64,000 nt of DNA. Source: Promicromonospora soli. Lineage in GTDB: Bacteria > Actinomycetota > Actinomycetes > Actinomycetales > Cellulomonadaceae. A program made the position numbers and the translations under genes. This document shows, in pieces, positions 26,801-57,690 of this stretch. The notes below the pieces were generated by a model. That model searched no databases. It was not told where the DNA came from and was given only the letters and a program-made list of their open reading frames with translations. How positions within the stretch are numbered: the stretch's first letter is position 1; the number at the start of each line of letters is the position of its first letter. The DNA is taken from assembly GCF_014653785.1 (NCBI RefSeq), contig NZ_BNAS01000006.1, positions 372,001-436,000 on the forward strand, in the 5' to 3' direction.

Positions 26801-26814
26801 GTGGCGAAGGTCCC
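26801..26814 (-). promoter_or_regulatory. DevR-like box, pflBA proximal
   Basis: On the minus strand this reads GGGACCTTCGCCAC, with two mismatches to GGGACCTTNGTCCC. It lies about 126 bp upstream of the pflB start. A second site begins exactly 21 bp further upstream. Confidence 0.6.
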
Positions 26815-26821
26815 TCGTGCT

Positions 26822-26835
26822 CTGACGAAAGTCCC
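26822..26835 (-). promoter_or_regulatory. DevR-like box, pflBA distal
   Basis: On the minus strand this reads GGGACTTTCGTCAG, preceded by CGAC as at several other sites in the island. It is spaced 21 bp (two helical turns) from the proximal site, so two DevR dimers could bind on one DNA face. Confidence 0.55.
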
Positions 26836-27629
26836 GTCGCGAGATCAGCTTCTGCCGCCCTTGCGGCTGCGCGCACCTGCGCCGGCTGGCCCACCGCGAT
26901 CCTGCGCAGCCGGCGCAGTGTCGCCCCGAGCGCCTTGAGGACGACGAGCTCGCGCTGCTGCTCCGTGACCTGGGTGTACGCGACGAGCGCGACGATGAGG
27001 GTGCCGGCCGCGAACGCGACGCCGACCATGAGCCGCACCGGGGATCCGTAGATGTCGGTCGCCAGCTGCAGCGACGCATCGTGCAGCCCGGCCGGGCTCC
27101 GCACCGTGAACCCCGCCGCTTCGAGCCGGTTGCTGACCCCGGCAGGGTCGGATGTGGTCACCAGAATCGCGCCGGTGGTCCCGGTCGCCTGCAGCATCTG
27201 GTCCAGCCCGGCCGTCGTGGTGAACAGCAGCGGCGTCATGAACAGCGCGGTGTCGTCGGTCAGCCCGACCACTCACATCGGGTGCCCCGGCACTGGCAGT
27301 TGGTCGCCGAGCGTCAGGTCGTGCTGGTCTGCGAGCAACGCGTCCACGGCCACTCGTCGGCGGCCGGTGACCAGGAAGGCCCCGGCGAACAGACCGATGT
27401 GGTGCAACACGTGCGGAGTAAGCCCGGCGACGGTCGCGATCCCTGCGTGACGGCGTTCCAGGCCGCCGCCGCTCCGGGCCGGCGCGGCCGGCTCCGTTGC
27501 CCGCGTGTCCGCGCCGAAGTGGTTGTGGTCGTGGCTCATCGGGGTACTCATGAGGTGCGGCAGGGCAGCGTCGTCATTCGCGCGCGGGTCACGACGTTCC
27601 CGACCTGCTGCCCGGCCCAGCCTCAGGTG

Positions 27630-27836
27630 TCACGCCGGGCACACGTGATCAGGCTCCCATCCGGTGACGCCTTGGTGCATGCCCGGGTTGTGCATCCCGT
27701 CAAAGCCGGCGAGCTGGGCACACTGAACCACGTGCTGTCCGAAGCCTCCCGCGTCGGGAGCCGCTGACGCGGGAGTCGTGCCGGCCGACAAGAACACGAG
27801 CAGAGCTGCTGCGACGCCGGCGCGGATGGTCTTCAT
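27630..27836 (-). CDS. Small secreted protein
   Basis: The 68-residue protein has a clear signal peptide (MKTIRAGVAAALLVFLSAGT, then ASA-AP cleavage) and a mature part of about 42 residues with two cysteines (HVVQCAQLAGFDGMHNPGMH and a final DHVCPA). GAGGAGGAC precedes the ATG. No domain is recognised. It shares size, a signal peptide and paired cysteines with the protein at 53166. It is transcribed divergently from the DUF6448 gene across a tandem pair of DevR-like boxes, so it is a candidate hypoxia-induced secreted protein. Confidence 0.75.
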   Translation of the reverse strand: MKTIRAGVAAALLVFLSAGTTPASAAPDAGGFGQHVVQCAQLAGFDGMHNPGMHQGVTGWEPDHVCPA

Positions 27837-27962
27837 GATTGTCCTCCTCGTTGGACGTGCGCGCCCGCCGGCGCGACGTCGCGGGTGCTATGACTCCACC
27901 GTGCACCCCCACGCCTCGCGCCGCACGGGTTGGGACAGGGCCATCTGGCGTGGTGGGTCGAC

Positions 27963-27997
27963 GGGACCTTCGCCGTCGACATTGGGCCCTTCGCCCC
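27963..27997. promoter_or_regulatory. Tandem pair of DevR-like boxes
   Basis: GGGACCTTCGCCGT (27963-27976) and GGGCCCTTCGCCCC (27984-27997) start 21 bp apart. They lie between the divergent small secreted gene (start 27836) and the DUF6448 gene (start 28093), at about 126 and 95 bp respectively. The first carries the extended left flank TCGAC seen at other island sites. Confidence 0.6.
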
Positions 27998-28092: not shown

Positions 28093-28644
28093 ATGCCTCC
28101 TCACTGCGATTCACTTGACGGACCCGTCGTCACCGCCGCCCGACAGGCACTCGAGGCCGGCGACGTCGACCTGGTTCTGCCGTTCGTCCCCGAGCGCTGG
28201 GAGGACGACGTCCGCGCGGCTTTCGACAGCGTGCTGCCGGTACGCGGCCTGAGCGAGGAAGCCCGTGAGGTCGCCGACCGGCTGTTCTTCGAGACCGTCG
28301 TCCGGATCCACCGCGCCGCCGAGGGCGCCCCGTTCACCGGCGTGAAGCCCGCCGGGCTCGACGTCGGACCGGTGATCCCGCTCACCGAGCGGGCGATCAC
28401 CACCGGGTCACCGGAGCCGGTGGCGGAGTTCCTGACCCGCGTGCTGCACGACGAGCTCACGCACCGCTTGCACAAGGTCAACACCCTCTCCGCGGCCAAA
28501 GGCCGGTCGGTGGCTGATGGCCGGGAGTGGGTCGAGGCGATGCTCGGCTTCCAGGTGTACAGCCACCATCTGCTGCAGGCGATGCACGCTCCCGCGCACG
28601 CCGAGCAGGACGACGGCGAGAACCGCGGCCACACCCACGTGTAG
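28093..28644 (+). CDS. DUF6448 family protein
   Basis: The 183-residue soluble protein starts MPPHCDSLDGPVVTAARQAL and contains LFFETVVRIHRAAEGAPFTG, then KPAGLDVGPVIPLTERAI. This matches a family of unknown function annotated as DUF6448, with conserved His and acidic residues. The ATG at 28093 has GGAG 8 nt upstream, and a longer open frame upstream has no site. The C-terminus is His-rich (ENRGHTHV). Its position after paired DevR-like boxes makes it a likely regulon member. The biochemical role is unknown. Confidence 0.8.
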   Translation: MPPHCDSLDGPVVTAARQALEAGDVDLVLPFVPERWEDDVRAAFDSVLPVRGLSEEAREVADRLFFETVVRIHRAAEGAPFTGVKPAGLDVGPVIPLTERAITTGSPEPVAEFLTRVLHDELTHRLHKVNTLSAAKGRSVADGREWVEAMLGFQVYSHHLLQAMHAPAHAEQDDGENRGHTHV

Positions 28645-28704: not shown

Positions 28705-31323
28705 TCATCCTCGAGAACCGGATCGGCCTGGGCGGGGTCCTGTGGGGCGCCGGCGTGCTCGTACGGCCTTGACGGAGGCGTCCGCAAGGACGACGGCCAC
28801 CGGCGCGAGGAGCGCCACCGCCCAGCCCGCGGCGGGTGGCGGGCTGCCGCCGAGCAGGCCGGCCAACGGGGGCGCCAGGAACACAGCGAGCAGGACGAGC
28901 TCGATCGCGACCGCCCAGAGCAGCATCGGGTTGCCGGTCATCCGGAGCGCCCCGGCCCAGCGATACTCGCTGCGGCAGGCGAAGGCGTTGCCGAGCTGCC
29001 CCAGGACGACGGCGGCGAAGGCTGCGCCGGAGGCGGCCGCCAGAGTCTGCGCGGACGGTTCGGCGCCGACGGTCCAGCCGGCCAGGGCGAGAACCACGAA
29101 GAACGCCGCCATCTCGACGACCGCCTCGGCCGGACCGAGGACGCCGAAGACCCGCACCAGCACACCGCGGTCGATCAGCGCGCCGATGGACGGCGGCTGC
29201 CGCATCGTCCTGCGGCTGGGTGGCTCCGCACCGAGGGCGAGTGCGGGCAGCAGATCGGTGCCGATGTCAAGGGCGAGGATCTGCAGCACGGTCAGGGCGA
29301 GGGGCACGTTGCCGCCGCTGAGTGCCCAGATCAGGAACGGCGTGAGCTCGGCGACGTTGTCGGTTAGGTGATATGTCAGGAACCGGCGGATGTTGGCGAA
29401 CGTCGCACGGCCCAGCTCGACGGCGGCGACGATGGTCGCGAAGTTGTCGTCCAGGAGCACCACGTCCGCGGCCTCGCGGGCAACGTCGGAGCCGCTGCGG
29501 CCCATGGCGATACCGATGTCGGCCTCGCGTAGCGCCGGCCCGTCATTGACCCCGTCACCCGTCATCGCGACCACGTGCCCCCGGGCATGGAGGGCGCGGG
29601 CGATCCGCAACTTGTCCTCGGGCGTGACACGGGCGATCACCACTCCGTCCCTGTCGACCAACTCACCGAGCGCATCGTCGTCCGCGGGAAGGTCGGACCC
29701 TTCCAGGACCGGCCCGTCCCGCAGCAACCCCACCTCTTGGGCGATCGCCGTCGCCGTGCCGAGGTGGTCGCCGGTGATCATGGCGAGCTTGATGCCCGCG
29801 CTGCGGCACGCGGCCACCGCGGCGTGGACGTCGTCGCGGGGCGGGTCCTCCAGACCGACGAGACCGAGCAGCTCCAGGTCCTTCTCCACATCGGGCAGGG
29901 GCGCGTCCTGGTCCGCCGCGCCAGCATCGCGGCGTGCGATCGCCAGGACTCGCAGACCCCGCGCCGCCATTTCGGCCACGGCACGGACAGCGTCGTCGCC
30001 CGCGGAGGTGAGCGCGAGGACCGAGTCCGGTGCGCCCTTGACGTAGACCCGATCTCCGGCGACGACCGACATGCGGCGGCGGCGGGAGTCGAACGGCAGG
30101 CGCCTGCGCAGCGGCCGCTCTGTCTCCTCGGCAGGCATGTCGACACCGGTGCGCAGGGCGAGCACGTGCAGGGCGACCTCCATCGGGTCACCGTGCGCCG
30201 TCCACTGCTCGCCACTGCGGACCATCCGTCCGGTCGAGCACCGCACGGCCGCCAGTGCGACGTCGCGGAGGGCCGGAACCACGCCGTTCTCGGCGTTGAT
30301 GCGAGCGGTGGGCGCGTACCCGTGACCGACGACGGACGCTGTTCCCTCGGGCGTCCATACCTCGACGACCGACATCTCGTTGCGGGTCAGCGTGCCGGTC
30401 TTGTCGGTGCAGATGAAAGTCGTGGAGCCCATGGTCTCCACCGAGTCGAGGCGACGGACCAACGCGTTGCGGGACGCCATCCGCTGCGCGCCCCGCGCCA
30501 GCGAAAGAGTTACGGTCGGCAGCAGTCCTTCCGGGACCAGCGCGACCATGACGCCGACGGCGAAGAGGAACCCGTCGGACGCCGGCATGCCGAGCATCTG
30601 GGAGACGATGAAGAACGCGACGCCGACGGCGATGGCGATCCCTGCGATCATGCGCACGACGCGCCGTAGCCGGATCGCGAGCGGACTCGCGGAACGGCTC
30701 GCCGTCCGGGTGAGAGCCATGATGTGCGCCAGCTCCGTCGCCGCCCCGGTAGCGGTGACCTCGACGGCCGCCTCACCCTCGACCACGTAGGTCCCGGCAT
30801 GGACGTCGTCCCCCGGCGATGGATGGGTAGTGGTGCTCTCGCCGGTCAGCGCCGACTCGTCGACTGCGAGCCCGGTCACGGAGACCACGCGGCCGTCCGC
30901 GGCCACCCCGTCGCCGGCCTCCAGGATTAGCACGTCCCCGACCACGATGTCCCGTACGGGGACCTGTCGACGGCGCCCGTCGCGCAGGACGATCGCCAGG
31001 GCCGGCATCAGCTCGAGCAGCTTCTGGCCGGCCTTGTCTGCCCGATACTCCTGCAGGAACGCGAAGGCGCCGTTGACGACCACCACCACGGCGATGGCGA
31101 CCGCGAGCTCGGGCATGTCGGCGATCCACGCGAGAACCGCCGCGGCCCAGAGAAGCAGGGCGAAGAAATGGACCATCTGCCCCAGGAGCAGTCTCACAGG
31201 AGACGGCGGACGAGGCTTCGGAACCAGGTTCGGGCCCAGATCCTGGAGGCGATGAGCCGCCTGGGACGATGACAGGCCGACACGTTCCCCGACGCCCGGT
31301 GTATTCGTGTCGACCGTCTCCAT
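28705..31323 (-). CDS. Cation-transporting P-type ATPase
   Basis: The 872-residue P-type pump has an N-terminal cation-ATPase domain (SSSQAAHRLQDLGPNLVPKP), the TGES loop (ALTGESTTTH), the phosphorylation site CTDKTGTLTRNE, the KGAPDSVL nucleotide-binding motif and the hinge VAMTGDGVNDGPAL. A C-terminal helix bundle with LDIGTDLLPALALG follows. The M4 sequence ALVPEGLLPTV resembles Ca/Na/K-type (P2) pumps more than heavy-metal pumps. The ATG at 31323 has GGAG at good spacing. It diverges from a universal stress protein over two DevR-like boxes, as with Mycobacterium tuberculosis ctpF/Rv1996. The transported ion is not determined. Confidence 0.92.
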   Translation of the reverse strand: METVDTNTPGVGERVGLSSSQAAHRLQDLGPNLVPKPRPPSPVRLLLGQMVHFFALLLWAAAVLAWIADMPELAVAIAVVVVVNGAFAFLQEYRADKAGQKLLELMPALAIVLRDGRRRQVPVRDIVVGDVLILEAGDGVAADGRVVSVTGLAVDESALTGESTTTHPSPGDDVHAGTYVVEGEAAVEVTATGAATELAHIMALTRTASRSASPLAIRLRRVVRMIAGIAIAVGVAFFIVSQMLGMPASDGFLFAVGVMVALVPEGLLPTVTLSLARGAQRMASRNALVRRLDSVETMGSTTFICTDKTGTLTRNEMSVVEVWTPEGTASVVGHGYAPTARINAENGVVPALRDVALAAVRCSTGRMVRSGEQWTAHGDPMEVALHVLALRTGVDMPAEETERPLRRRLPFDSRRRRMSVVAGDRVYVKGAPDSVLALTSAGDDAVRAVAEMAARGLRVLAIARRDAGAADQDAPLPDVEKDLELLGLVGLEDPPRDDVHAAVAACRSAGIKLAMITGDHLGTATAIAQEVGLLRDGPVLEGSDLPADDDALGELVDRDGVVIARVTPEDKLRIARALHARGHVVAMTGDGVNDGPALREADIGIAMGRSGSDVAREAADVVLLDDNFATIVAAVELGRATFANIRRFLTYHLTDNVAELTPFLIWALSGGNVPLALTVLQILALDIGTDLLPALALGAEPPSRRTMRQPPSIGALIDRGVLVRVFGVLGPAEAVVEMAAFFVVLALAGWTVGAEPSAQTLAAASGAAFAAVVLGQLGNAFACRSEYRWAGALRMTGNPMLLWAVAIELVLLAVFLAPPLAGLLGGSPPPAAGWAVALLAPVAVVLADASVKAVRARRRPTGPRPGRSGSRG

Positions 31324-31415: not shown

Positions 31416-31429
31416 GGGACCTTCGGCGC
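31416..31429. promoter_or_regulatory. DevR-like box between P-type ATPase and usp (site 1)
   Basis: GGGACCTTCGGCGC has two mismatches to the consensus and an exact TCGAC left flank. It is 93 bp upstream of the ATPase start. Its surroundings (31390-31430) are clearly related to 33580-33620. Confidence 0.6.
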
Positions 31430-31468: not shown

Positions 31469-31482
31469 GGGACCTTGGTCCT
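31469..31482. promoter_or_regulatory. DevR-like box between P-type ATPase and usp (site 2)
   Basis: GGGACCTTGGTCCT has one mismatch at the last base. It is 77 bp upstream of the usp start and 53 bp (about five helical turns) from site 1. Confidence 0.75.
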
Positions 31483-31558
31483 ACTGTTCGGGGCCGCCCG
31501 TCTCTGCCACGCAAAGTCGGCCGGCTGGTGTCCTGATGGTGAGCAGAGGAGGACGATC

Positions 31559-32440
31559 ATGAACTACACCTGGTACCGGGGCATCGTCGTCGGAGTCGAC
31601 GGCTCGCAGGAGAGCCTGTCGGCGCTGAACTGGGCGACCCTGACCGCCGATCGGCATGGAGCCCGTCTGACGGTGGTGGCTGTGCACCCCGTTCCGCCCG
31701 AGGCCGGCCCGGGCACGAGCAGTCTCATCGAGGACGCACGGGAGCAGGCACGCCGCGCGGCCCGTGCAGCGCGAGACCGGCTCGGTGGATGGCGCCCGGG
31801 AGGCAGGGACGTCGAGGTGCTCGTCCTGCCGGGGAACGCCGCCCGCGTCCTTGCCGAGCTGTCGAACAACGAAAACATCGTCGTGGTGGGGCGCCGCGGC
31901 CGCGGCGCGTTCGACCGTGCACTGCTCGGGTCCACGTCCTCAGCACTGGCGGCGGCCGCGCCCGGTACGGTCGCGGTGGTGCCAGCCGGCGCAGCGACCG
32001 ACGATCCCCGCCGGATCAGGGTAGGAGCAGGGTCCGTCGACGACCCGGACGCCCTGGGTACAGCATTCGCGGAGGCGGACGCGCGCGGGTGCCCCCTCGA
32101 GGTGGTGCACGTCACGGGGACAGACCCGATCTCGTCCGCGCTGCTCGACATGGACCCCGTGGCAGCGTCGTGGCACGAGGCCGCAGCGGCGGACCTGGCC
32201 GACCGGCTTGGCCGGTGGTCTGACAAGTACCCCCAGGTCACCTACACGGTAGTGATCCGCCGCGGGGACCCGGTCGCAAACCTGCTCCACGGCCTGACCC
32301 GGTACGACATGCTGGTGGTCGGCGGACGGAGCCATTCGGCTGTCACCGGTCGCCTGCTGCGCAGCGTGCCCGAAGCCGTGGTGCGCGGTGCGCCGTGCCC
32401 GGTCGTGGTCGTGCACGCACGTCGTCATCTGGTCGCCTGA
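31559..32440 (+). CDS. Universal stress protein, two tandem USP domains (A)
   Basis: The 293-residue protein has two USP domains. The first (GIVVGVDGSQESLSALNWAT) carries the ATP-loop pattern VVVGRRGRGAFDRALLGSTS. The second ends VVGGRSHSAVTGRLLRSVPE. GAGGAGGAC precedes the ATG at 31559. It is a close paralogue, with the same length, of the USP at 47005. Tandem-domain USPs such as Rv2005c, Rv1996 and Rv2623 are hallmark DosR-regulon members that bind ATP and slow growth. Its promoter region carries a near-perfect DevR-like box. Confidence 0.93.
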   Translation: MNYTWYRGIVVGVDGSQESLSALNWATLTADRHGARLTVVAVHPVPPEAGPGTSSLIEDAREQARRAARAARDRLGGWRPGGRDVEVLVLPGNAARVLAELSNNENIVVVGRRGRGAFDRALLGSTSSALAAAAPGTVAVVPAGAATDDPRRIRVGAGSVDDPDALGTAFAEADARGCPLEVVHVTGTDPISSALLDMDPVAASWHEAAAADLADRLGRWSDKYPQVTYTVVIRRGDPVANLLHGLTRYDMLVVGGRSHSAVTGRLLRSVPEAVVRGAPCPVVVVHARRHLVA

Positions 32441-32958: not shown

Positions 32959-33414
32959 ATGGAGATCGTTCGGGGAGAGCGGGTAGCGCAGGAGATAGTG
33001 GGCCTGCACGAATCGGTGCGGATGGAAGAACTCAGAGATTTCTTCCCCCGTGCCATGACGGCAGCCGGCGAAGCTCTCGAAGCGCGGGGTGTGGACCCGG
33101 CAGGGCCGCCCGTGGCCCTTTACGAGGGCATGAGCGAGGGGACGTTCGAGGTGACGGCCGGGTTCCCGGTCCCCACAGGGGCCGCACCGTCGGACGACGT
33201 CGTCGTCGCGATGCTCCCTGGGGGCGCAACGGTCGAGGTGATCCACGAAGGGTCCTACGACGGCCTGTCGGACACCTACGAGGAGCTCACTGCCTGGTTC
33301 GAGGAGAACGGGATGACGCCGCCGACAGTGATGTGGGAGGAGTATCTCGTCGGACCTGAGAGCGGAGCGGATCCCAGCCACTGGCAGACTCGCATCGTGT
33401 ACCCGGTGGGCTGA
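32959..33414 (+). CDS. GyrI-like effector-binding domain protein
   Basis: The 151-residue protein has the AraC effector-binding/GyrI-like fold. It begins with a beta-alpha segment, then PVALYEGMSEGTFEVTAGFP, the pattern VEVIHEGSYDGLSDTYEEL, and WEEYLVGPESGADP with the conserved acidic ligand-site residues. Stand-alone members bind or hydrolyse small cyclic or cationic ligands. No DNA-binding domain is present. GGGGAC is a moderate ribosome-binding site. I saw no DevR-like box directly upstream. Confidence 0.82.
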   Translation: MEIVRGERVAQEIVGLHESVRMEELRDFFPRAMTAAGEALEARGVDPAGPPVALYEGMSEGTFEVTAGFPVPTGAAPSDDVVVAMLPGGATVEVIHEGSYDGLSDTYEELTAWFEENGMTPPTVMWEEYLVGPESGADPSHWQTRIVYPVG

Positions 33415-33594: not shown

Positions 33595-36033
33595 TCACGG
33601 GTCCACGGGACCTTCGCCGGCAGGGGGTCTGCGGTCTCTGCTCTCGTCTCTCCAGCGAACCTCCCAGATCTCGCCCGGCGCCAGCGCCCGTTGCTGGCCG
33701 TCGAGGGCCACGGTGATCGGCAGCTGCCGCGAGCGCTCCATGCCGACGGAGACACCGTCGTGGGCACAGCGCACGGTGATGCCCCAGTGGTCCCGGTAGC
33801 GGAGCCGGAGCTCCAGGGCGTCGAGCTCGTCGGGCAGCAGTGGCTCCAGCCGGAGCACGCCACCGGTGACGTCCAGCCCCGTGTAGCAGCGCTGGACCAG
33901 GTCGACGGCTCCGGCCATCGCGCCGAGGTGTATCCCCTCGGCGGTCGTTCCACCCTGGACGTCGCCGATGTCGCTGTCGAGCGCCTCACGGAAGAACCGC
34001 CACGAGGCGCTGCGGTCCCGGCTGGCAAGCACCCAGGCGTGCACGACCGCGCTCAGGGTCGATCCGTGGCTCGTGCGCGCCAGGTAGTAGTCCACCGTGC
34101 GGTCCAGCGCGGCGCGGTCGAGCTGGTAGCCGAGCGCTGCCAGAGCGTCGAGCACGCCTCGCTCGCCGAGGAGGAACAGGAGCATCAGGACGTCCGCCTG
34201 CTTGGACGCCTGGTAGCGGTTCACCGAGTCGTTCTCCGCCTCCAGGATCCGGTCGAGCCGCCGGACGACGCCGTAACGCGACCGGTACGCCGGCCAGTCC
34301 AGCTCCGCGAGCCGGTCGTAACCCTCGAACTGGCTGATCACACCGTCGCCGTGGAACACCACCCGCATCCGCCGGCTGACGTGGTCGAACAGATCCGTCT
34401 CGTGCTCGGTCAGCCTCAGACGCGACCGCAGGGCCTTCCGCTCCCGCTCGGGCAGCAGCGCCAGGGCCTCCAGGGCGTACCGGAGCACCCGGGTGACCAT
34501 GACGTTCGTGTACGCGTTGTTGTCGATCCCGGGGCGGTCCGCGTCCGGGTATCGGTCGTGGTACTCGTCGGGTCCGACCACGCCCCGAATGTCGTACCGG
34601 TCCGCGGCGGCGTCGTAGGTCGCGAGGCTGCACCAGAACCGGGCTATCTCCACGAGCATCTCGGTGCCGTAGCCATGCAGGAACGCGAGATCGCCACTGG
34701 CCTGGTAGTACTGCCAGACGTTGTGCGCCACCGCGATCCCCACGTGCCGCTGCAGATCGGTGTGGTCCTCGAGCCACCGGCCGGACACCGGGTTGAGATG
34801 CATTCGCTGCGTCTCGTCCCTGCCGTCGCTTCCGCTCTGCCACGGATACATCGCGCCCCGGTAACCGGCTTCGGCTGCCGCGCGCCGCGCCCGTGGCAGC
34901 CGTCGCCACCGGTACATGAGCAACGACCGAGCCACCTGGGGCAAGCGCAGGAGCAGGAACGGGAACACGAACAACTCGTCCCAGAAGATGTGCCCCCGAT
35001 AGGCCTCGCCGTGCAGGCCGCGTGCAGGCATGCCGACGTCGAGCTGCGTCGTGTGCTCGGACAGGGTCTGCAGCAGATGGAAGACGTACAGGTTCAACGC
35101 CAGCTGCGAGTCACCAGGTACGGCCACCTCGCTCGTCCGCCAGAGGCGTTCCCAGGCGCGCACGTGGTCCGCCAGCAGCTCGTCGAAGGGCGGGATGCGG
35201 ACCGCGTGCCGCCGGGCGGCGTGCAGGGACTCGGAGATCGCCTGGTCCTGCGAGGTATACATCGCTACCCGCTTCTCGACCGTCACCGGCACGCCCTGGG
35301 CCATGTCCAGCCACAGCCGCACGGCCGACTCGCCGGCAGTGTGGTCGAACGTGGCGGTCACCGGCTTCGACCGGTCATTGACCACGACCGTCATCGCCTG
35401 TGCGATCCGGATCTGCGACGTGGCGGTGCGGACCTGTAACCAGGCGACGCCCTCGTCCCTGTCGTAGCCCTCCGCGACGGGGACGAGATGCCGGCCGTCG
35501 AGGTCCCGGTACCGCGCGACCCCGGAGTTGGACACCCGACCGTCGAGGCCTGCGCGGACCTCGAGCCGCCCCGACCAGTTCTCCGCGACGAATGTCGTCT
35601 CCAGGGCAGCGACGTGCGGGTCGTGCATCGACACCAGCCGCCGTTGGGTAACGGCGAGCACCCGGCCGACCGAGTCGCGAAAACGGGTTCGCCGGGTCAG
35701 CAGCCCTCGTCGTGTGTCGAGATCCTGCCGGTGTTCCAGGACGTCTCCCCCGGCAAGGCTCAGCCAGTCCTGTCCGGGCGTACGGAAGGTGAGCGGCAGC
35801 CAGTTCGGTGCGTTGACCAGGTCCTCGTTCTCGACCGCGCGGCCTGCCACCGTCGACGTCAGCCGGTCGTAGCAGCCGGCGAAGTACGTGCCCGGGTAGT
35901 GCACGCCGTCGGCCGGCGACTCCGGTGCGGCGCCCCGGGTGGCGACATAGCCGTTTCCCAGGGTGCACAGGGCCTCCCTCAGGCCTTCGGCGGCTGGGTC
36001 GAAGCCCTCATACGACAGGGTGACGTGTTGCAT
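33595..36033 (-). CDS. Glycoside hydrolase family 65 disaccharide phosphorylase
   Basis: The 812-residue protein has the three GH65 parts: an N-terminal beta-sandwich (TLGNGYVATRGAAPESPADG), an (alpha/alpha)6 catalytic domain, and a C-terminal beta-sheet domain. The general-acid Glu is in RGVVGPDEYHDRY, and phosphate-loop residues lie in the HGSTLSAVVHAW segment. Family members phosphorolyse maltose, trehalose, kojibiose or nigerose to beta-glucose-1-phosphate and glucose, saving ATP. The specificity here is open. GGGGAGG precedes the ATG at 36033. It overlaps the beta-PGM-like gene by 26 bp. The extreme C-terminus runs into a DevR-like box and may be altered by a rearrangement. Confidence 0.92.
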   Translation of the reverse strand: MQHVTLSYEGFDPAAEGLREALCTLGNGYVATRGAAPESPADGVHYPGTYFAGCYDRLTSTVAGRAVENEDLVNAPNWLPLTFRTPGQDWLSLAGGDVLEHRQDLDTRRGLLTRRTRFRDSVGRVLAVTQRRLVSMHDPHVAALETTFVAENWSGRLEVRAGLDGRVSNSGVARYRDLDGRHLVPVAEGYDRDEGVAWLQVRTATSQIRIAQAMTVVVNDRSKPVTATFDHTAGESAVRLWLDMAQGVPVTVEKRVAMYTSQDQAISESLHAARRHAVRIPPFDELLADHVRAWERLWRTSEVAVPGDSQLALNLYVFHLLQTLSEHTTQLDVGMPARGLHGEAYRGHIFWDELFVFPFLLLRLPQVARSLLMYRWRRLPRARRAAAEAGYRGAMYPWQSGSDGRDETQRMHLNPVSGRWLEDHTDLQRHVGIAVAHNVWQYYQASGDLAFLHGYGTEMLVEIARFWCSLATYDAAADRYDIRGVVGPDEYHDRYPDADRPGIDNNAYTNVMVTRVLRYALEALALLPERERKALRSRLRLTEHETDLFDHVSRRMRVVFHGDGVISQFEGYDRLAELDWPAYRSRYGVVRRLDRILEAENDSVNRYQASKQADVLMLLFLLGERGVLDALAALGYQLDRAALDRTVDYYLARTSHGSTLSAVVHAWVLASRDRSASWRFFREALDSDIGDVQGGTTAEGIHLGAMAGAVDLVQRCYTGLDVTGGVLRLEPLLPDELDALELRLRYRDHWGITVRCAHDGVSVGMERSRQLPITVALDGQQRALAPGEIWEVRWRDESRDRRPPAGEGPVDP
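33607..33620. promoter_or_regulatory. Orphan DevR-like box next to the USP remnant
   Basis: GGGACCTTCGCCGG is preceded by TCCAC and lies within the last codons of the GH65 gene. It is upstream of the minus-strand USP remnant, so it is probably that lost gene's old promoter site. Confidence 0.45.
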
Positions 36034-36793
36034 CGTGCCTCCCCGCCACGGTGAGGTCGGCGAGGTCGCCGACCACGACATGGGCTCCTCGGCCCGCCAT
36101 GTCCTCGCTGATCCGGCCGTGCCGGTCCACGCCGATCACCAGTCCGAACCCGCCCCGGTGGCCGGCCTCGATGCCGACCAGGGCGTCCTCGATCAGCGCG
36201 CAGCGGCCGGGCGGCACCGCGAGACGCCTCGCGGCCTCCAGGAACAATGCCGGGTCCGGTTTACCCGCGAGCCCGAGCCGCTCTGCGTCGAGACCGTCCA
36301 CCCTCACGTCCACCAGGGCCTCCACACCCGCGGCCCGCAGCACCGGCCCGCAGTTGCGGCTCGCCGACACGGCCGCGATGGCGGTCCCGCGATCCCGCAG
36401 TTCGTGCAGGAAGGCCAGCGTGGACCCGAACGCCTGGACCCCGTGGTCCCGGACCTCGTCAAGGAAGTATCGGTTCTTCCGGTTCAGCAGCGACTCGAGG
36501 GTATCCGCCCCGTCTTCGCCCAGCTCGGGCAGCGCGATCCCCCGCGAGCCGAGGAAGCCACGGGCACCGTCTTCTCGCGACCGGCCGTCGACGAAGCGCA
36601 CGTAGTCGGCTTCGACGTCGAACGGCGGCAAGCTGACACCGGCCCGAGGACCTTGGTCCCGGAGCAGCTCGTCGAACGCTCGCTTCCAGGCTGCCGCATG
36701 AATGCGAGCGGTGTCCGTGATGACGCCGTCCGTGTCGAGGACGACGGCGTCGATGGCCCCCAGGTCCAGCCTGGCGCGGCGCGTCGTTGTCAC
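36008..36793 (-). CDS. HAD-family beta-phosphoglucomutase-like enzyme
   Basis: The 261-residue protein has the HAD nucleophile and acid/base pair in VVLDTDGVITDTARIHAAAW (Asp20 and Asp22). It also has the VSASRNCGPVLRAAGVE motif, the lysine in GLAGKPDPALFLEAA, and the acidic motif ALIEDALVGIEAG. This arrangement is typical of beta-PGM, which turns beta-glucose-1-phosphate into glucose-6-phosphate. The neighbouring GH65 phosphorylase supplies exactly that substrate. The GTG at 36793 is chosen for GGGG at proper spacing. The gene sits in a flavodoxin-HAD-GH65 operon behind the box at 37428. Confidence 0.9.
   Translation of the reverse strand: MTTTRRARLDLGAIDAVVLDTDGVITDTARIHAAAWKRAFDELLRDQGPRAGVSLPPFDVEADYVRFVDGRSREDGARGFLGSRGIALPELGEDGADTLESLLNRKNRYFLDEVRDHGVQAFGSTLAFLHELRDRGTAIAAVSASRNCGPVLRAAGVEALVDVRVDGLDAERLGLAGKPDPALFLEAARRLAVPPGRCALIEDALVGIEAGHRGGFGLVIGVDRHGRISEDMAGRGAHVVVGDLADLTVAGRHDATRHPVV
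36647..36660. promoter_or_regulatory. Near-perfect DevR-like palindrome inside the HAD gene
   Basis: AGGACCTTGGTCCC differs from a perfect palindrome only at the first base, but it lies about 135 bp inside the coding sequence (codons for RDQGPRA). It may be chance in GC-rich DNA or an internal site for GH65. Confidence 0.35.
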
Positions 36794-37346: not shown

Positions 37347-37427
37347 CGCAATTACCTCCTGTGATTGGTAGTTCCACACTCCTTTGCTGACGCCATGGGA
37401 TGTCAGGGGCGTCCGGCCCGGGTCTGC

Positions 37428-37441
37428 GGGACGTTGGTCCC
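37428..37441. promoter_or_regulatory. DevR-like box between flavodoxin operon and acg-like gene
   Basis: GGGACGTTGGTCCC has one mismatch, and its outer arms GGGAC/GTCCC are perfect. It is 82 bp upstream of the flavodoxin start and 92 bp upstream of the nitroreductase start, so one site could serve both directions. Confidence 0.75.
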
Positions 37442-37532: not shown

Positions 37533-38492
37533 ATGGATGTCGTCGACGCACGGGTGGAGAGGATCCTGAGGGCAGGGGCGAGCGCTCCGAGCGTGTTCAA
37601 CACCCAGCCCTGGCAGGTGAAGGTCACGGACCACATCGTGGCCGTCCGTGCGGATCCGTCGCGGCAGCTTCACCACTCCGACCCGCACGGCCGCGAGATG
37701 CTGATCAGCTGCGGAGCCTTCCTGTTCAACGCCAGGACAGCCGCTCGCCGCGAGTCGCTGACTGCCGCGGTCAAGGTGCTGCCCGACCCGTCCGACGACC
37801 TGCTGGTTGCCGAGGTCGAGCTCGAGCCAGGCCCAGAGCCCAACATGGACGAGCTCGAGCTGTCCGTGGCGATCGCGCGACGCGCCACGTCACGAGTCCC
37901 GTTCGACGACCAGCCGCTGTTCACAGACGTCCTGATGGCCATCCAGCAGGCTGCCCGTGACGAGGGCGCGGAACTGCGCCTGATCCAACCCTCCGAGCCC
38001 GTGCGTGAGGAGGTCATGGGACTCGTGCGCCGGGCAGAGGCCCTCGCCGCGGAGGACCCGGTCGCCCGCGGCGAGGAGGCGGCCTGGACCACCACAGACG
38101 CGGACCGCTCCGACGGCATCCCCCAGGAGCTGCTCGGCCCGGAGCCAGTCAACGACCAGGCGCCGGTACGACGGTTCCTCGCCAGCGCGGGGAGTACACA
38201 GTTCGAGGAGCGGTCCACGACGGCGGTGCTCTGGACACGTGGTGACTCTGCCCGGGACTGGATCTGCGCGGGTCAGGCGCTGGAGCACGTGCTGCTGGTC
38301 GCTACCACCTACTTCGTCCACGCGTCGTTCGCGACCACCGTCCTGGAGAACCCGACGACCCGCCACGACCTGCGCCGAGTCCTGTCACTCGAGGGAGCAC
38401 CACAGATGCTGATGCGGCTGGGGTACAGCTCGTTGCCGATGCACACACCTCGCCGCTCCACCCACCAAGCGACCGCGCACCACGACGAGTGA
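37533..38492 (+). CDS. Acg family FMN-binding nitroreductase-like protein
   Basis: The 319-residue protein begins with a nitroreductase half-domain (RILRAGASAPSVFNTQPWQV) and has RRATSRVPFDDQPL. The second half contains TAVLWTRGDSARDWICAGQA and ends with PQMLMRLGYSSLPMHTPRR. This is the pattern of Mycobacterium tuberculosis Acg (Rv2032) and Rv3131, DosR-regulon proteins that bind FMN but lack normal nitroreductase activity. AAGGGAGAAGG lies before the ATG. A C-terminal scrap of a second copy is found at 57305. Confidence 0.9.
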   Translation: MDVVDARVERILRAGASAPSVFNTQPWQVKVTDHIVAVRADPSRQLHHSDPHGREMLISCGAFLFNARTAARRESLTAAVKVLPDPSDDLLVAEVELEPGPEPNMDELELSVAIARRATSRVPFDDQPLFTDVLMAIQQAARDEGAELRLIQPSEPVREEVMGLVRRAEALAAEDPVARGEEAAWTTTDADRSDGIPQELLGPEPVNDQAPVRRFLASAGSTQFEERSTTAVLWTRGDSARDWICAGQALEHVLLVATTYFVHASFATTVLENPTTRHDLRRVLSLEGAPQMLMRLGYSSLPMHTPRRSTHQATAHHDE

Positions 38493-43772: not shown

Positions 43773-43872
43773 CTGGACACGGGGCCGGCGACCCTGCCGG
43801 GCGGCAGTGCACCGGAGGGATCGTGGTCACAGACGCCGGAACAGGTCCGGCGTACCCAACAGGAGGAACACC

Positions 43873-44445
43873 ATGAGCTCCATCAGCCACCACTCCGCAC
43901 AGTGGGCGCACGGACAGGTCGCGCGTGAGCGTGACGCCGCCGCGGCCACTCATGTCACCGGCGATGGCGTCGCCCGCTACTCCTTCGCGGGTGTCCGGCT
44001 GCTGCTCGCCTTCGAGCTTCTCTGGGCGTTCGGCGACAAGCTCCTCGGCTGGGGCCTGGCCACGCCGACCGACCGCGCCTGGATCAACGGCGGCTCCCCG
44101 ACCGAGGGCTACCTCAGCGGCGTCGAAGGCCCGTTCGCCGGATTCTTCGGCGCGCTGGCCGGCAACGCCGTTGTCGACTGGCTGTTCATGCTCGGCCTGC
44201 TCGGCATCGGCCTGGCGCTCGCACTGGGCATCGGCATGCGGATCGCCGCTGGCGCCGGCGCGCTGCTCATGCTGCTCATGTGGCTGGCGTCGCTGCCGCT
44301 GGAGAACAACCCCTTCGTCGACTACCACCTGGTCAACGCCGTCCTGCTCGTCGGGCTGGCCGCGTTCCTGGCCGGCGACACCGCCGGGCTCGGCAACTGG
44401 TGGGCACGGCTTCCGCTGGTGCAGCGGTTCCCCGTGCTGCGATGA
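43873..44445 (+). CDS. DoxX-like integral membrane protein
   Basis: The 190-residue protein has an N-terminal cytoplasmic stretch and four membrane segments: [60 protein letters not shown] and [17 protein letters not shown]. This is the DoxX / thiosulfate:quinone oxidoreductase small-subunit pattern. AGGAGGAACACC precedes the ATG at 43873. It lies directly upstream of devR behind a perfect DevR-like palindrome, so it is likely the first gene of that unit. The enzymatic role is not established. Confidence 0.85.
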
Positions 44446-44510: not shown

Positions 44511-45164
44511 ATGGACGTGCGCGTTTTTCTCGTCGACGACCACGAGGTCGTCCGGCGAGGCGTCGCCGACCTGCTGGAGTCCGAGCCGGGAGTGAGCGTC
44601 GTCGGTGAGGCAGGTACGGCACGAGAGGCGCTCGCCCGGGTCCCGGCGCTCGCACCCGACGTCGTGGTGCTGGACGTGCGACTGCCCGACGGCGACGGCG
44701 TCACCGTCTGCCGCGAGCTACGGTCCCAGATGCCCACCCTCGCCTGCCTCATGCTCACCTCGTTCTCCGACGACGAAGCGCTCTACGACGCGATCCTTGC
44801 CGGAGCCGCCGGCTACGTGCTCAAGCAGGTACGCGGCACCGACCTCGTCCAAGCCGTGCTGACCGTCGCGGCAGGCGGGTCGATGCTGGACCCCGGGGCC
44901 GCGGCCCGGGTCATGGAACGGCTCCGCGCCGACGCCCACCACGAGCCTGACCCCCTCGTCGACCTGACCGACCAGGAACGACGGATCCTCGCACTGATCG
45001 GGCACGGCCTGACAAACCGACAGATCGGCGCCGAGCTCTTCCTAGCCGAGAAGACGGTCAAGAACTACGTCTCCCGCATCTTCGCCAAGCTCGGGCTCGA
45101 GCGTCGGGCGCAGGCCGCGGTCCTCGCCGCGCGGCTGGAGCAGGACGAGCACCGCCGCACGTGA
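44511..45164 (+). CDS. devR: DevR/DosR-type response regulator
   Basis: The 217-residue NarL-family regulator equals the length of mycobacterial DosR. The receiver domain begins [20 protein letters not shown] with the phosphorylatable Asp55 in [10 protein letters not shown]. The HTH has [20 protein letters not shown], whose recognition helix matches DosR, including the residues corresponding to Lys179, Lys182 and Asn183. The two Thr residues of DosR phosphorylated by PknH (198 and 205) are both Ala here ([13 protein letters not shown]). The ATG at 44511 is chosen on homology. An upstream ATG at 44442 overlaps the doxX stop. The kinase gene is convergent, with only 28 bp between. Confidence 0.93.
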
Positions 45165-45192: not shown

Positions 45193-46863
45193 TCAGTCCC
45201 CCGGAGTGCTGTCTGTGGGGAGCGGCACCCGCCACACCAGGCGGGTCCCGCTCCGGTCGGCGTCCGGGCTCGCTGGTCCGACGTCGAGGCTGCCGCCCAG
45301 CTCGTGCGCACGTCGGGCGAGGTTGCGCAGGCCGCTGCGCGGCGCACCCGGTGGTACGCCCGTGCCGTCGTCGCTCACGACGAGCACCAGGTCGTCCGCC
45401 ACGGCCAGCCGGACCTCCGCCCGGGACGCGGACGCGTGCCGGGCGACGTTGGACAGCGCCTCGCGCACAACGGCGACGACGTGGTCAGCGACGTCCGGCG
45501 GCACCAGAGCGTCTACAGCGCCCTCGAATCGCAGCGGCACCCCGAACCCGAGCGGCACAGCAGCGGCGTCGACCTCCGTGATCACACGCGAGCGCAGGCC
45601 GATCCGCCGAGCACCAGCGCCACCGGGCCGGTCGCCAGGCTGCAGCCGGTAGATCGTGGTGCGCACGAGGGAGATGGTCTCGTCGACCTCGTCGACCGCC
45701 GTGGCCAGCTGTTCCGCCAGCTCCGGTGGTGCGGTGCGCGCCAGACGCTGCAGCGACAGGCCGGTCGCGTAGAGCCGCTGGATGGCCAGGTCGTGCAGGT
45801 CTCGGGCGATGCGCTCGCGGTCGCGGAGCAGGACGAGGCGCTCGGCGTCGGCGCGCCCCTCCGCCAGCTCCAGGGCGACGGCGGCCTGCGCGGCGAAAGC
45901 GCCGAGAGCCTCGACCACGACCGACGAGAACGGCTCGCGGCCTCGGGTGCGGGCAGCAGCCAGGACACCACGGGCGCGGCCCTGCTCGCCGAGCGGCCAG
46001 ACTGCCAGCGGGCCGAGCTCGACCGGCAGGTCCAGCGCGAACTCGGCGCGCTCGTCGGTCGTGGCGTCGTCCGTGACCATCGGTACCCCGGTGCGGAACG
46101 TGAGTGCGGCGAACGTCCCGTCGGTAGACAGGACTGATCCGACCTGGTCCTCTGTGCCCAGCCCGGATGCGGTCTGCAGCACCAGGCGACCGGTGTCCGG
46201 GTCCGGCACGGAGACGGCCGTCAGGTCCGCGTTGGCCACCTCTCGTGCCTGACTGCCGATGAGCCTTAGGACGTCGTGCGGCGACGACCCGGCCAGGACC
46301 TGACGCGAGATCCGGTCGTTGGCGCGGGCCCACCGTTCGCGCAGCTGTGCGACGTCGTACAGCCGGGCGTTCTCCATAGCCACGCTTGCCGCCGACGCCA
46401 GGGCCTGCAGTACCTGCTGATCGTCGGCGGTGAAGTCGCCACCGTCGCGCTTGTCCGTGAGGTAGAGGTTGCCGAACGGCGAGCCGTGCACCCGCAGCGG
46501 CATGCCGACGAAGGTGCGCATGGGTGGGTGGTGTGCCGGGAAGCCGACCGAGACGGGGTGGGCGGACAAGTCGTGCAGACGCAGCGGCACGGGGTGACGA
46601 ATCAGCTCGCCCAGCACGCCGTGACCGGTGGGGTACGGGCCGATCGCTGCGATCTGGTCCTCCGACAGGCCGACCGTGAGAAACCGGGCTATCCGGCCGT
46701 CGTCGCCCAGCACGCCGAGGGCGCCGTACCGGGCGTCCACGAGCTCGACCGCGGTCTCGACGATGTGGTGCAGCACCGTCTCCAGGTCCAGGCCGCGGCT
46801 GACCGTGATGACTGCGTCGAGCAGCAGGTCAGTGCGGTCGCGCGCGCTAGCCGTCGGGTCCAT
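45193..46863 (-). CDS. devS: DevS/DosT-type heme-GAF sensor histidine kinase
   Basis: The 556-residue kinase has GAF-A (about 10-165), GAF-B (175-335), a HisKA_3 dimerisation domain with RERIARDLHDLAIQRLY (His357) and an HATPase domain (VVREALSNVARHA, then VSDDGTGVPP). In GAF-A the heme-ligand His of DosS (His149) is kept as His112 in GFPAHHPPMRTF, and the distal Tyr171 is Tyr134 in NLYLTDK. The DosS Glu87 position is Gly50, as in the oxygen sensor DosT. The protein lacks the roughly 40-residue N-terminal extension of DosS. It diverges from a USP gene over a perfect DevR-like palindrome. It should sense O2, NO or CO and phosphorylate DevR. Confidence 0.92.
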   Translation of the reverse strand: MDPTASARDRTDLLLDAVITVSRGLDLETVLHHIVETAVELVDARYGALGVLGDDGRIARFLTVGLSEDQIAAIGPYPTGHGVLGELIRHPVPLRLHDLSAHPVSVGFPAHHPPMRTFVGMPLRVHGSPFGNLYLTDKRDGGDFTADDQQVLQALASAASVAMENARLYDVAQLRERWARANDRISRQVLAGSSPHDVLRLIGSQAREVANADLTAVSVPDPDTGRLVLQTASGLGTEDQVGSVLSTDGTFAALTFRTGVPMVTDDATTDERAEFALDLPVELGPLAVWPLGEQGRARGVLAAARTRGREPFSSVVVEALGAFAAQAAVALELAEGRADAERLVLLRDRERIARDLHDLAIQRLYATGLSLQRLARTAPPELAEQLATAVDEVDETISLVRTTIYRLQPGDRPGGAGARRIGLRSRVITEVDAAAVPLGFGVPLRFEGAVDALVPPDVADHVVAVVREALSNVARHASASRAEVRLAVADDLVLVVSDDGTGVPPGAPRSGLRNLARRAHELGGSLDVGPASPDADRSGTRLVWRVPLPTDSTPGD

Positions 46864-46913: not shown

Positions 46914-46927
46914 GGGACCTTGGTCCC
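46914..46927. promoter_or_regulatory. Perfect DevR-like palindrome between devS and usp
   Basis: GGGACCTTGGTCCC is an exact inverted repeat apart from the central pair. It is 51 bp upstream of devS and 78 bp upstream of the USP gene, so one site could activate both. Confidence 0.82.
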
Positions 46928-47004
46928 CCTGACTGGGGCCGCCTGCCCCTGCCTGGATGACCCCGCTCACTGGTGTCCTGGTAGGGAAACGGAGGAGGGC
47001 AATC

Positions 47005-47886
47005 ATGAACATCAACTGGTACAAGGGCATCGTCGTCGGTGTCGACGGTTCGGACGAGAGCCTGGCGGCACTGGACTGGGCGGCGCACGCCGCAGACCTG
47101 CACGAGGCCCGCCTGACGGTTGTGGCGACCTACACCGTGCCGGCCGAGACCATCCGTGGCTACGCGGACTCCATCATGGACGCGCAGCAGGAAGCCCACC
47201 GTGCCGTCCGGGCAGCACGCACCCGGCTCGGCTCCCGGCGCCCGGGCGGCCGGGACGTGGAGCTGATCGTCCTGCCGGGGGCCGCCGCACTCGTGTTGAG
47301 CCAGCGGTCCAAGACCTGCGACCTCGTGGTGGTGGGGCGCCGCGGCCTGGGCGCGCTGGACCGAGTGCTGCTCGGTTCCACCTCCTCGGCGCTGGCGGCG
47401 TCGTCTCCGGGAGCAGTCGCCGTGGTACCTGCCGGGGCGACAACCGGAGACCCCCGCCGGATCCGGGTCGGTGTGGGACGCGACGAGGAACCGGATGTCC
47501 TGGGTGCCGCGTTCGCCGAGGCCGACGTACGCGGCTGCAGTCTTGAAGTGCTGCACGTGGCGGACACCAACCCGTTCTCCTCGGCACTGCCCGAGATGGA
47601 CCCGGTAGCCACTTCGTGGCACCAGGGAACCAAGGAAGACCTTGCCGACCGAGTGGCCAGGTGGTCCGAGAAACACCCGCGGGTCACCTGCACAATGGTG
47701 ATCCGCCGCGCGGACCCGGCCTCAGCGCTGCTCCACGACCTGTCCCCGGACGACCTCCTGATCGTCGGCGGACGCAGGCACCAGCCAGCCATGGGCCGCG
47801 TGCTGCGTAGCGTGCCCGACGCCGTGCTCCGGGCCGCGCCGTGCCCCGTCCTTGTGGTGCACACGCACGATCTTCCCGCCGCCTGA
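47005..47886 (+). CDS. Universal stress protein, two tandem USP domains (C)
   Basis: The 293-residue protein is a close paralogue of the USP at 31559. It starts NINWYKGIVVGVDGSDESLA and has the nucleotide loop VVVGRRGLGALDRVLLGSTS and the second-domain end GGRRHQPAMGRVLRSVPDAV. GGAGGAGGG precedes the ATG at 47005. Its position opposite devS over a perfect box makes it one of the most likely strongly induced genes. Confidence 0.93.
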   Translation: MNINWYKGIVVGVDGSDESLAALDWAAHAADLHEARLTVVATYTVPAETIRGYADSIMDAQQEAHRAVRAARTRLGSRRPGGRDVELIVLPGAAALVLSQRSKTCDLVVVGRRGLGALDRVLLGSTSSALAASSPGAVAVVPAGATTGDPRRIRVGVGRDEEPDVLGAAFAEADVRGCSLEVLHVADTNPFSSALPEMDPVATSWHQGTKEDLADRVARWSEKHPRVTCTMVIRRADPASALLHDLSPDDLLIVGGRRHQPAMGRVLRSVPDAVLRAAPCPVLVVHTHDLPAA

Positions 47887-53147: not shown

Positions 53148-53165
53148 AAGAGGAGGAGAGACACC

Positions 53166-53444: not shown

Positions 53445-53466
53445 GAATCCGGGACTTCTGGGCATA

Positions 53467-56839: not shown

Positions 56840-57267
56840 TGCTTCACCGCCTTCTCGATCGGGGCCCTCTCAGCCAGGGCTGCTTTGAGCACGCCCCGAG
56901 CGCTGGCCCCGGGCAGGGCCGGCAAATGGTGCGCGATGGCGAGCAAGCCGTCATCGGCGTCCTTGCCGGCCAGGCGCCGCAGCAGGAAGGCACGCGCGAC
57001 GACGAGCAGGTCGGCGACCAAGGGCTCGGTCAGCCGGTACACCACGGCGTTGCCCGAGCGCGTCGAGTCAACGACACCCGCGCGCTTAAGAACCGCCAGG
57101 TGCTGGGACAGCGCGGAGGGTTCAGCACCCGTGACATCCAGCAGGCGAGAGACCGGCGCGGCCAGGCGCGGGTCGGCCGCGATCACTTCCAGCACCCGGA
57201 TGCGGACCGGATGGGCCAGGGCCTTGAACAGCTCTGCCTTGATCGCGTACAGGGGCTGCGTATCCAC
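56836..57267 (-). CDS. ArsR-family winged-helix regulator
   Basis: The 143-residue protein begins with an ArsR-type HTH: AELFKALAHPVRIRVLEVIA, then GAEPSALSQHLAVLKRAGVV. A beta-wing follows (STRSGNAVVYRLTEP). There are no obvious metal-binding cysteines, so it may sense something other than a metal. It is translationally coupled to the SulP permease, a pair seen in many actinobacteria. It starts with an ATG 37 bp from the nitroreductase remnant. Confidence 0.88.
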   Translation of the reverse strand: MDTQPLYAIKAELFKALAHPVRIRVLEVIAADPRLAAPVSRLLDVTGAEPSALSQHLAVLKRAGVVDSTRSGNAVVYRLTEPLVADLLVVARAFLLRRLAGKDADDGLLAIAHHLPALPGASARGVLKAALAERAPIEKAVKQ

Positions 57268-57304
57268 TCCATGACTTTAGCAGTCGCTGAAACCACTATC
57301 CTCA

Positions 57305-57391
57305 CCGCAGATGCTCATGCGGCTGGGGTACTGCTTGATGCCGCAGCACACACCTCGCCGGTACGCACCACGTGCGGCTACGCGCGACTAG
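57305..57391 (+). pseudogene. C-terminal remnant of an Acg-like nitroreductase
   Basis: The frame reads PQMLMRLGYCLMPQHTPRR, nearly the same as the end of the complete Acg-like protein (PQMLMRLGYSSLPMHTPRR at 38399-38458), then stops at TAG 57389-57391. Only 28 codons remain, and the DNA is also strongly similar. It joins directly to a truncated ADH gene on the other strand. Confidence 0.75.
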
Positions 57392-57566
57392 GAATGAACG
57401 GCGGGGTCGGCTTGACCCGCCAGTCACCGCGGGCGGCGTGGATGTCGGTGTGGCACAGGCCGCTGGTCTCGATCCGGACCAGCACCTCGCCAGGCCCTGG
57501 CTCGGGGACAGGCACGTCCATGACCTGCAGCGGGGAGGTGAAGTCGGTGACGACTGCGGCTTTCAT
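57378..57566 (-). pseudogene. N-terminal remnant of a zinc alcohol dehydrogenase
   Basis: The frame starts MKAAVVTDFTSPLQVMDVPV and continues VRIETSGLCHTDIHAARGDW, with the catalytic-zinc Cys, up to PTPPFIP. It is then cut off at about 57393, where the antisense of the nitroreductase remnant begins. About 58 of roughly 340 residues are left. It resembles AdhP-type enzymes rather than the complete ADH at 19237. Two DevR-like boxes lie 90-125 bp upstream, so it was probably a regulon member. Confidence 0.75.
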
Positions 57567-57655
57567 GACAGCTCCGTTCGAAAGGTGGTGCGAGGCCGAC
57601 ATCCGCGGTGAGCGGCGCCGGTTCCAACATCCCTCCGAACGGCATGCGTGAAGCA

Positions 57656-57690
57656 GGGGCGAAGGTCCCTCCGCCGACGATGAAGGTCCC
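57656..57690 (-). promoter_or_regulatory. Tandem pair of DevR-like boxes upstream of the ADH remnant
   Basis: On the minus strand these are GGGACCTTCGCCCC (57656-57669, one mismatch) and GGGACCTTCATCGT (57677-57690) with the TCGAC left flank. They start 21 bp apart. Order, spacing and flanks match the pflBA pair (26801-26835). Confidence 0.65.

Follow-up and report, generated by a model that had tools for sequence, protein, structure and literature searches.

Does a 64,000-nucleotide stretch of the genome of Promicromonospora soli (NCBI RefSeq assembly GCF_014653785.1, contig NZ_BNAS01000006.1, positions 372,001 to 436,000; hereafter the window) encode an oxygen-limitation regulon of the kind governed by DosR, or DevR, in Mycobacterium tuberculosis, and if it does, to which functions has such a regulon been turned? 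The question is raised by fifteen copies of a 14-bp palindrome between positions 26801 and 57690, gathered around genes for a response regulator (devR) and a sensor kinase (devS), which an original prediction took for a hypoxia and dormancy regulon outside mycobacteria. We are confident that the cluster is a DosR/DevR-type oxygen-limitation regulon of a Promicromonospora/Myceligenerans-like actinobacterium, that many of its operators are tandem and that it includes a fermentation branch; regulator, kinase, box geometry and gene families all appear to fit. The words 'outside mycobacteria' are true, but such a system has already been tested in Streptomyces (OsdR; PMC5069765, accessible portion), so this part of the prediction is not new.

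Sites, regulator and sensor

Every one of the fifteen predicted coordinates, read back from the window, carries the described motif or its reverse complement, and the arms have the GGGAC-N4-GTCCC geometry of the M. tuberculosis DosR consensus, as had been claimed. The copies at 43759 and 46914 had been called perfect, and their 6-bp arms are, but the TT centre is not self-complementary. Within the host genome (5,378,526 bases in 20 contigs, of which the window is C6:372001-436000), GGGACCTTNGTCCC occurs twice, at these same two positions. Six genomic sites lie within one mismatch of GGGACCTTGGTCCC, five of them in the window (p = 1.4e-9), and of 36 genomic copies of the left part, GGGACCTTNG, ten fall in the 30.9-kb span against 0.21 expected (p = 9e-15).

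For a site matrix we took 26 distinct sites from the loci of relatives, with the window excluded, and drew its background from 20 stretches of the host genome minus L037, a neighbour of the window, and L039, a stretch picked for a site. At 13 bits or more it finds 11 sites between 26.7 and 57.8 kb of the window, against 3 in 360 kb of background, or 0.26 per 31.1 kb. They comprise the predicted sites 26801, 31416, 31469, 36647, 37428, 41418, 42834, 43759, 46914 and 57656, and an additional 14.4-bit site at 41826, inside usp3, which the prediction had not listed. A further four (26822, 27963, 27984 and 57677) score 9.2-10.1 bits; each stands in a tandem pair and is credible solely as a partner in it. 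Thirteen of the fifteen predicted sites are thus credible, while 33607 fails and 36647 is unsupported.

The encoded DevR, whose orthology was assigned by best match, aligns to M. tuberculosis DevR (3c3w) at E 1.2e-77 with a 10-residue recognition helix common to both, and the prediction that this helix is kept holds. The first GAF domain of DevS matches DosT (2vzw) at E 1.6e-49 and DevS (2w3d) at E 3.8e-45; it keeps the His of HHPPM and the Tyr of NLYL, 22 residues apart as in 2vzw, which we take to be the haem residues, numbered His149 and Tyr171. Among named loci the closest relatives of DevS belong to Myceligenerans salitolerans (89%) and several Promicromonospora species (78-87%). Genes and boxes are laid out as follows.

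23557..24396, minus strand: pflA, encoding the activating enzyme of pyruvate formate-lyase (274.4 bits above the cut-off of NCBIfam TIGR02493)
24393..26675, minus strand: pfl, formate C-acetyltransferase (NCBIfam TIGR01255, 1125.7 bits over cut-off)
26801..26835, minus strand: tandem box pair before pfl, 125 bp from the ATG, with a 21-bp pitch (13.5 bits for the proximal site 26801, 9.4 bits for the distal site 26822)
27963..27997, plus strand: tandem box pair before the DUF6448 gene (9.2 and 10.1 bits; 21-bp pitch; without conservation support)
28093..28644, plus strand: DUF6448 protein of 183 amino acids (Pfam PF20046; start by translation)
28705..31320 (start approximate), minus strand: P-type cation ATPase, pump 1, termed CtpF-like in the prediction (Pfam E1-E2_ATPase and others; NCBIfam TIGR01494)
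31416..31429, plus strand: DevR box between pump 1 and usp1 (14.4 bits)
31469..31504, plus strand: DevR box before usp1 (21.4 bits; weaker second site 22 bp on, by eye)
31559..32440, plus strand: usp1, tandem universal stress protein (Pfam PF00582, two stretches)
32959..33414, plus strand: GyrI-like small-molecule-binding protein (Pfam PF06445)
33595..36081, minus strand: GH65 glycoside hydrolase/phosphorylase (Pfam PF03632)
36008..36793, minus strand: HAD hydrolase of the beta-phosphoglucomutase family, holding 36647 (NCBIfam TIGR02009, 138.6 bits, under the cut-off of 153.35)
37406..37441, plus strand: DevR box before acg (37428 proximal, 20.9 bits; by eye also a weaker distal site, some 22 bp upstream)
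37533..38492, plus strand: Acg-family oxidoreductase binding flavin mononucleotide (NCBIfam NF047509, 268.9 bits over cut-off)
38528..41350 (start approximate), minus strand: P-type cation ATPase, pump 2 (Pfam, NCBIfam)
41418..41431, minus strand: DevR box between pump 2 and usp3 (14.4 bits)
41516..42400, plus strand: usp3, third universal stress protein, overlooked in the prediction (Pfam PF00582)
42471..42752, minus strand: Rv2632c-like (DUF1876) protein (Pfam PF08962)
42834..42847, minus strand: DevR box between the DUF1876 and short-chain dehydrogenase genes (14.4 bits)
42957..43727, plus strand: short-chain dehydrogenase (Pfam PF13561/PF00106)
43759..43795, plus strand: DevR box before the membrane-protein gene and devR (perfect arms, 23.6 bits; second left arm at +22/+23)
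43873..44445, plus strand: small membrane protein encoded before devR (no Pfam or NCBIfam match, DoxX-like only by eye; beside devR in relatives)
44511..45164, plus strand: devR, response regulator (PDB 3c3w, DevR, E 1.2e-77)
45193..46863, minus strand: devS, sensor kinase, GAF-GAF-HisKA_3-HATPase (Pfam; DosT GAF 2vzw, E 1.6e-49)
46914..46950, plus strand: DevR box between devS and usp2 (perfect arms, 23.6 bits; second left arm at +22)
47005..47886, plus strand: usp2, tandem universal stress protein (Pfam PF00582, two stretches)
57378..57566, minus strand: truncated adh, a 62-codon frame whose first ~60 codons match an alcohol dehydrogenase of 336 amino acids in relatives
57656..57690, minus strand: tandem box pair before the adh remnant (57656, 16.6 bits; 57677, 10.1 bits; 21-bp pitch)

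The boxes end 50-146 bp ahead of the start codons, which were set by eye, those of usp1, usp3 and the membrane-protein gene being off by 3-9 bases. By Pfam and NCBIfam the families behind them (universal stress proteins, P-type pump, Acg and DUF1876) fit a DosR regulon as proposed, P-type pump and DUF1876 proteins being DosR targets in M. tuberculosis too. Of the core DosR targets, the universal stress proteins, the Acg family and devR itself are present here with their sites, and would be regulated through them. Other mycobacterial targets are hspX, fdxA, narK2 and tgs1; none is among the annotated genes of the window, and no genome search for them was made. To judge by its genes, the cluster speaks for fermentation and redox adaptation no less than for 'dormancy'.

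Two neighbouring tracts complete the map. Between pfl and the DUF6448 gene, positions 26760-27272 of the minus strand give a weak FtsX-like permease match, perhaps a gene remnant. Positions 47992-55000 hold genes for a SHOCT protein, two membrane proteins, a large LuxR-type regulator, SnoaL and DUF4386 proteins; this block, in which the matrix scan of the window found no sites of 9 bits or more, separates the cluster from the adh remnant and from sulP/arsR.

Set beside known systems, the cluster shares with M. tuberculosis DevS/DosT-DevR a closely similar response regulator and GAF kinase. Unlike M. tuberculosis, where devR and devS follow one another in one operon, it has devS convergent to devR and a membrane-protein gene ahead of devR; it also differs in carrying C at the first central position (GGGACC..GGTCCC), in including pfl/pflA and adh, and in having one DevS-type kinase in the genome (at E 1e-30, among the 23 of 44 first-look candidates that were scored). 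Universal stress proteins and Acg are among the targets in M. tuberculosis as well (PMC2442614, accessible portion). The OsdK/OsdR system of S. coelicolor is likewise non-mycobacterial and clustered round its regulator, with universal stress proteins, a nitroreductase and a zinc dehydrogenase, and OsdR sites such as AGGGACCTTCGGCCCC share the common core, many of them lying at about -50 to -160 (PMC5069765, accessible portion). In an electrophoretic mobility shift assay OsdR bound the SCO5978-SCO5979 intergenic DNA, where the predicted site, CGGGACCTTCGGCCCT, has a core equal to the window motif; unlike here, the Streptomyces consensus is AGGGCCGATCGGCCCT and the set includes nitrate reductase and pyruvate phosphate dikinase, with no pfl or cydABDC in Table 1 of that report, in its portions available to us (PMC5069765).

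Conservation and operator geometry

Twelve relatives' regions were first examined (G001, G003-G006, G010, G011, L021, L023 and L028-L030), and the core of membrane gene-devR, devS and usp2 is present in 11. The devS-usp2 gap holds a box of at least 15.5 bits in all 11 core clusters, and the membrane gene-devR pair is preceded by one of at least 21.4 bits in 10, the eleventh, L028, having a 10.4-bit site. Box columns are 0.96 identical against 0.52-0.64 for their flanks, as measured over the two core promoters in 12 genomes picked for having boxes. Further out in the family both core boxes occur in G032 and weaker ones in G029; at 12.5 bits G020 has none.

Some relatives depart from this plan. 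Locus L099 (14270-14970, genome G008) carries a devR, 92% identical, with a 17.1-bit box ahead of it; the genome gave no devS match at E 1e-30, and its DevR is possibly an orphan. Genome G005 yields four DevS-type matches at E 1e-30, one with an internal stop, against one in the genome of the window. Strong boxes also lie distant from devRS at L089 10415 (G005; 23.6 bits) and L090 8240 (G010; 22.7 bits), one near a second DevS-type kinase and the other beside a SHOCT gene.

Of the 24 core promoters, 19 (8/12 before the membrane gene, 11/12 before usp2) have a second left arm, GGGNC, between +21 and +23; no other offset between +15 and +39 has it in more than 2. The cluster regions contain 66 boxes scoring 13 bits or more, many being orthologues of one another; around these, a second left arm that is nearly perfect turns up seven times at -21/-22 and no more than once at any other offset. 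The adh promoters of five species (the window remnant, G003, G001, G011 and L023) combine a distal half-box with a proximal box 21-22 bp away; in the pump 2/usp3 and short-chain dehydrogenase promoters there is no clear pairing of sites. Since the arm at +21 to +23 recurs in most core promoters, many seemingly single boxes appear to be pairs of a strong and a weak site 21-23 bp, or two helical turns, apart. Such tandem pairing in many promoters, with this spacing, is a new finding. In M. tuberculosis DevR has several sites per promoter, with cooperative binding to primary and secondary sites (PMC3029386, accessible portion), and by analogy the strong/weak pairs would match these.

From these elements a mechanism may be proposed. 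The haem-type GAF domain of DevS would sense the loss of oxygen, or perhaps the presence of nitric oxide or carbon monoxide, and DevS would phosphorylate DevR, which would then bind cooperatively to pairs resembling GGGAC-N4-GTCCC, often a strong and a weak one 21-23 bp apart, some 50-150 bp before the start codon. Phosphorylated DevR would activate the universal stress proteins, Acg, the cation pumps and its own genes, together with a fermentation branch of pyruvate formate-lyase and its activase, joined in relatives by alcohol dehydrogenase.

Fermentation and cydA across the family

In G003, pflA-pfl, usp1, the GyrI gene, GH65-HAD, adh, usp3, arsR and sulP lie on contig C2 and devRS on C4, and the genome keeps the pfl pair, the exact usp1 box and a 19.6-bit adh box; the pfl tandem block is common to G003 and the window, though the DNA around it has changed. 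In G001 and G011 a complete adh (336 amino acids) with a 22.7-bit box before it directly precedes pfl, both genes being on one strand, and from this arrangement we infer an adh-pfl operon. The window is left with an adh remnant of ~60 codons, 31 kb from pfl and still with both boxes.

In a survey of 59 genomes that included the host's, 44 contain the strict pattern GGGACSTTNGTCCC, with 103 hits against 12 for the reversed control; pfl is found in 29 (E 1e-150) and DevR in 27 (E 1e-65). A box of at least 13 bits lies within 400 bp upstream of pfl at 11 of the 29 loci (9/25 outside the genus), where 0.5 sites would be expected from the rest of the same loci; 200 column-permuted matrices gave a mean of 0.195 loci and a maximum of 3, none reaching 11. 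Because boxes are kept in G003 with devRS on another contig, and because they recur before pfl in 11 of 29 loci, pfl/pflA and adh probably belong to the box-bearing set, a new assignment.

Besides pfl, GH65/beta-phosphoglucomutase and DUF6448 had been put forward as additions to the regulon, and the three have fared differently: recurrent boxes uphold pfl, geometry is what speaks for DUF6448, and GH65/HAD may be no addition. The M. tuberculosis protein Rv2006 is presumably a HAD-GH65 fusion. It is otsB1, of 1327 amino acids, and is called a DosR-regulon antigen (PMC2442614, accessible portion), hence the doubt. Among 14 control genomes the GH65 family search also gave matches in four: those of E. 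coli, B. subtilis, Bacteroides ihuae and L. lactis.

FNR belongs to a different protein family from DevR and uses a different DNA site, and the window system is not a member of FNR-type control. The likeness is in the working: under FNR-type anaerobic control, pyruvate formate-lyase and alcohol dehydrogenase are switched on when oxygen is low (PMC4601167, accessible portion).

A second branch appears at cydA, for which the best 30 of 60 matches, by similarity to the G026 query, were taken. A box of at least 16 bits precedes cydA at 10 of these loci, at a distance of 82-188 bp, where 0.2 sites would be expected from the rest of the loci; all 10 are among the 17 loci outside the genus and none among the 13 within it, and this presence outside and absence inside, over the 30 loci checked, is new. 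Column-permuted matrices (200) gave a mean of 0.31 loci, but one reached 13/30, more than the 10 observed, having probably met another conserved element of the genus. In a biased set of regions, picked for kinase or box, the box lies 84-135 bp before cydA in ten out of ten, none excepted (L133-L135, L137-L140, L142, L143 and L151). Several cydA box loci outside the genus have a cydABDC-devS-devR arrangement; in L133 (G026, 5582-13953) the genes for CydA, CydB and two ABC proteins come first, and next stand those for a DevS-like kinase, whose match starts only at the second GAF domain, and for a DevR-like regulator (45%) whose helix is similar. The best reading is of a switch that recurs across the family with a shifting set of box-bearing targets: outside the genus these would be cydA (cydABDC in L133) and pfl, and in Promicromonospora-like genomes usp, acg, pumps and pfl-adh.

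Rival readings and meaning

Several observations weigh against such a regulon. Whether the motif is equally common elsewhere in the genome has a divided answer: for close matches it is not, but at up to two mismatches from GGGACCTTGGTCCC there are 79 genomic matches against 86 for the reversed control, and in the window by itself a search for loose palindromes gave 104 against 112.5 expected, with no excess in either; the signal is the clustering of close matches, not a loose motif. The matrix was trained on sites chosen by closeness to the consensus, so that its scores favour that form, and its background (18 stretches, 360 kb) covers only a small part of the host genome. Site 33607, at the 3' end of the GH65 gene, was rejected at 6.2 bits; site 36647 reaches 22.0 bits but lies in HAD coding sequence and is absent from all three aligned orthologues (G003, G006 and G008). 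The simple arm test found no second arm in 5 of 24 core promoters, and the DUF6448 pair 27963/27984 is a candidate by its geometry. No box of at least 13 bits lies within 400 bp of 18 of the 29 pfl loci, among them G020, G021 and G029, which have a DevR orthologue; in G001 and G011 the box precedes adh, not pfl; and no box precedes the cydA of the host genome. What is observed directly is the sites, their clustering and conservation, the tandem geometry and the protein families; by analogy with the M. tuberculosis and Streptomyces systems we infer haem binding, phosphotransfer, binding to DNA, activation, the oxygen signal and the physiological role. The score at 36647 is itself odd, as chance scores that high are rare.

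The alternative that survives best, unlikely as we hold it to be, is that only usp1/usp2, acg and devRS form the true regulon and that pfl, DUF6448 and the GH65 neighbours are passengers with non-functional weak sites. Scores of just 9.2-13.5 bits for the pfl and DUF6448 sites of the window would suit passengers, as would the loss of the HAD site and the failure to find a DUF6448 relative at E 1e-8 in the relatives' regions searched; a pfl tandem block that outlasts its surroundings in G003, pfl boxes that recur across the family and 22.7-bit adh boxes in G001 and G011 would not. It is less probable still, and distinctly so, that the operators are real but serve a different NarL/LuxR-type regulator, or that their signal is nitrate, nitric oxide or redox instead of oxygen. 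The window does encode a second LuxR-type regulator (50784-52619), some box-bearing relatives have as their best nearby DevR-like protein one just 41-47% identical, and G008 has its devR with no devS match at E 1e-30; against this stand the strong boxes at the membrane gene-devR pair (10/11) and between devS and usp2 (11/11), the match of the recognition helix to M. tuberculosis DevR and the presumed haem-pocket residues kept in DevS. That the sites are chance matches in GC-rich DNA, selectively read, is scarcely credible, for although loose searches give no excess and 33607 scores poorly, strict sites concentrate in the cluster, a matrix from other genomes finds 11 where 0.26 are expected and boxes are conserved across diverged flanks, so that chance is already refuted for the strong sites.

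What the cluster most likely represents, to judge from its sequence, is a DosR-type regulon rewired toward control of fermentation and of the bd oxidase. A wider reading, which we offer tentatively and rate somewhat below even chances, is that the DosR system may be the family's general low-oxygen switch, doing a job like that of FNR or ArcA by governing bd-type respiration and pfl/ethanol fermentation; the mycobacterial 'dormancy' regulon would then be a specialised form of an older switch, and Promicromonospora a rewired state with a boxless cydA and usp/acg/pfl-adh instead. In a literature search thin on subscription journals and confined to the best-ranked results, we found no report of DosR-type sites or a DosR-type regulon with pfl or cydABDC, nor of DosR in Promicromonospora or Cellulomonas. 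DosR has been studied mainly for its part in tuberculosis latency. The cluster is a concrete candidate for the control of fermentation in these actinobacteria, and it comes with a testable promoter rule: two sites, two helical turns apart.

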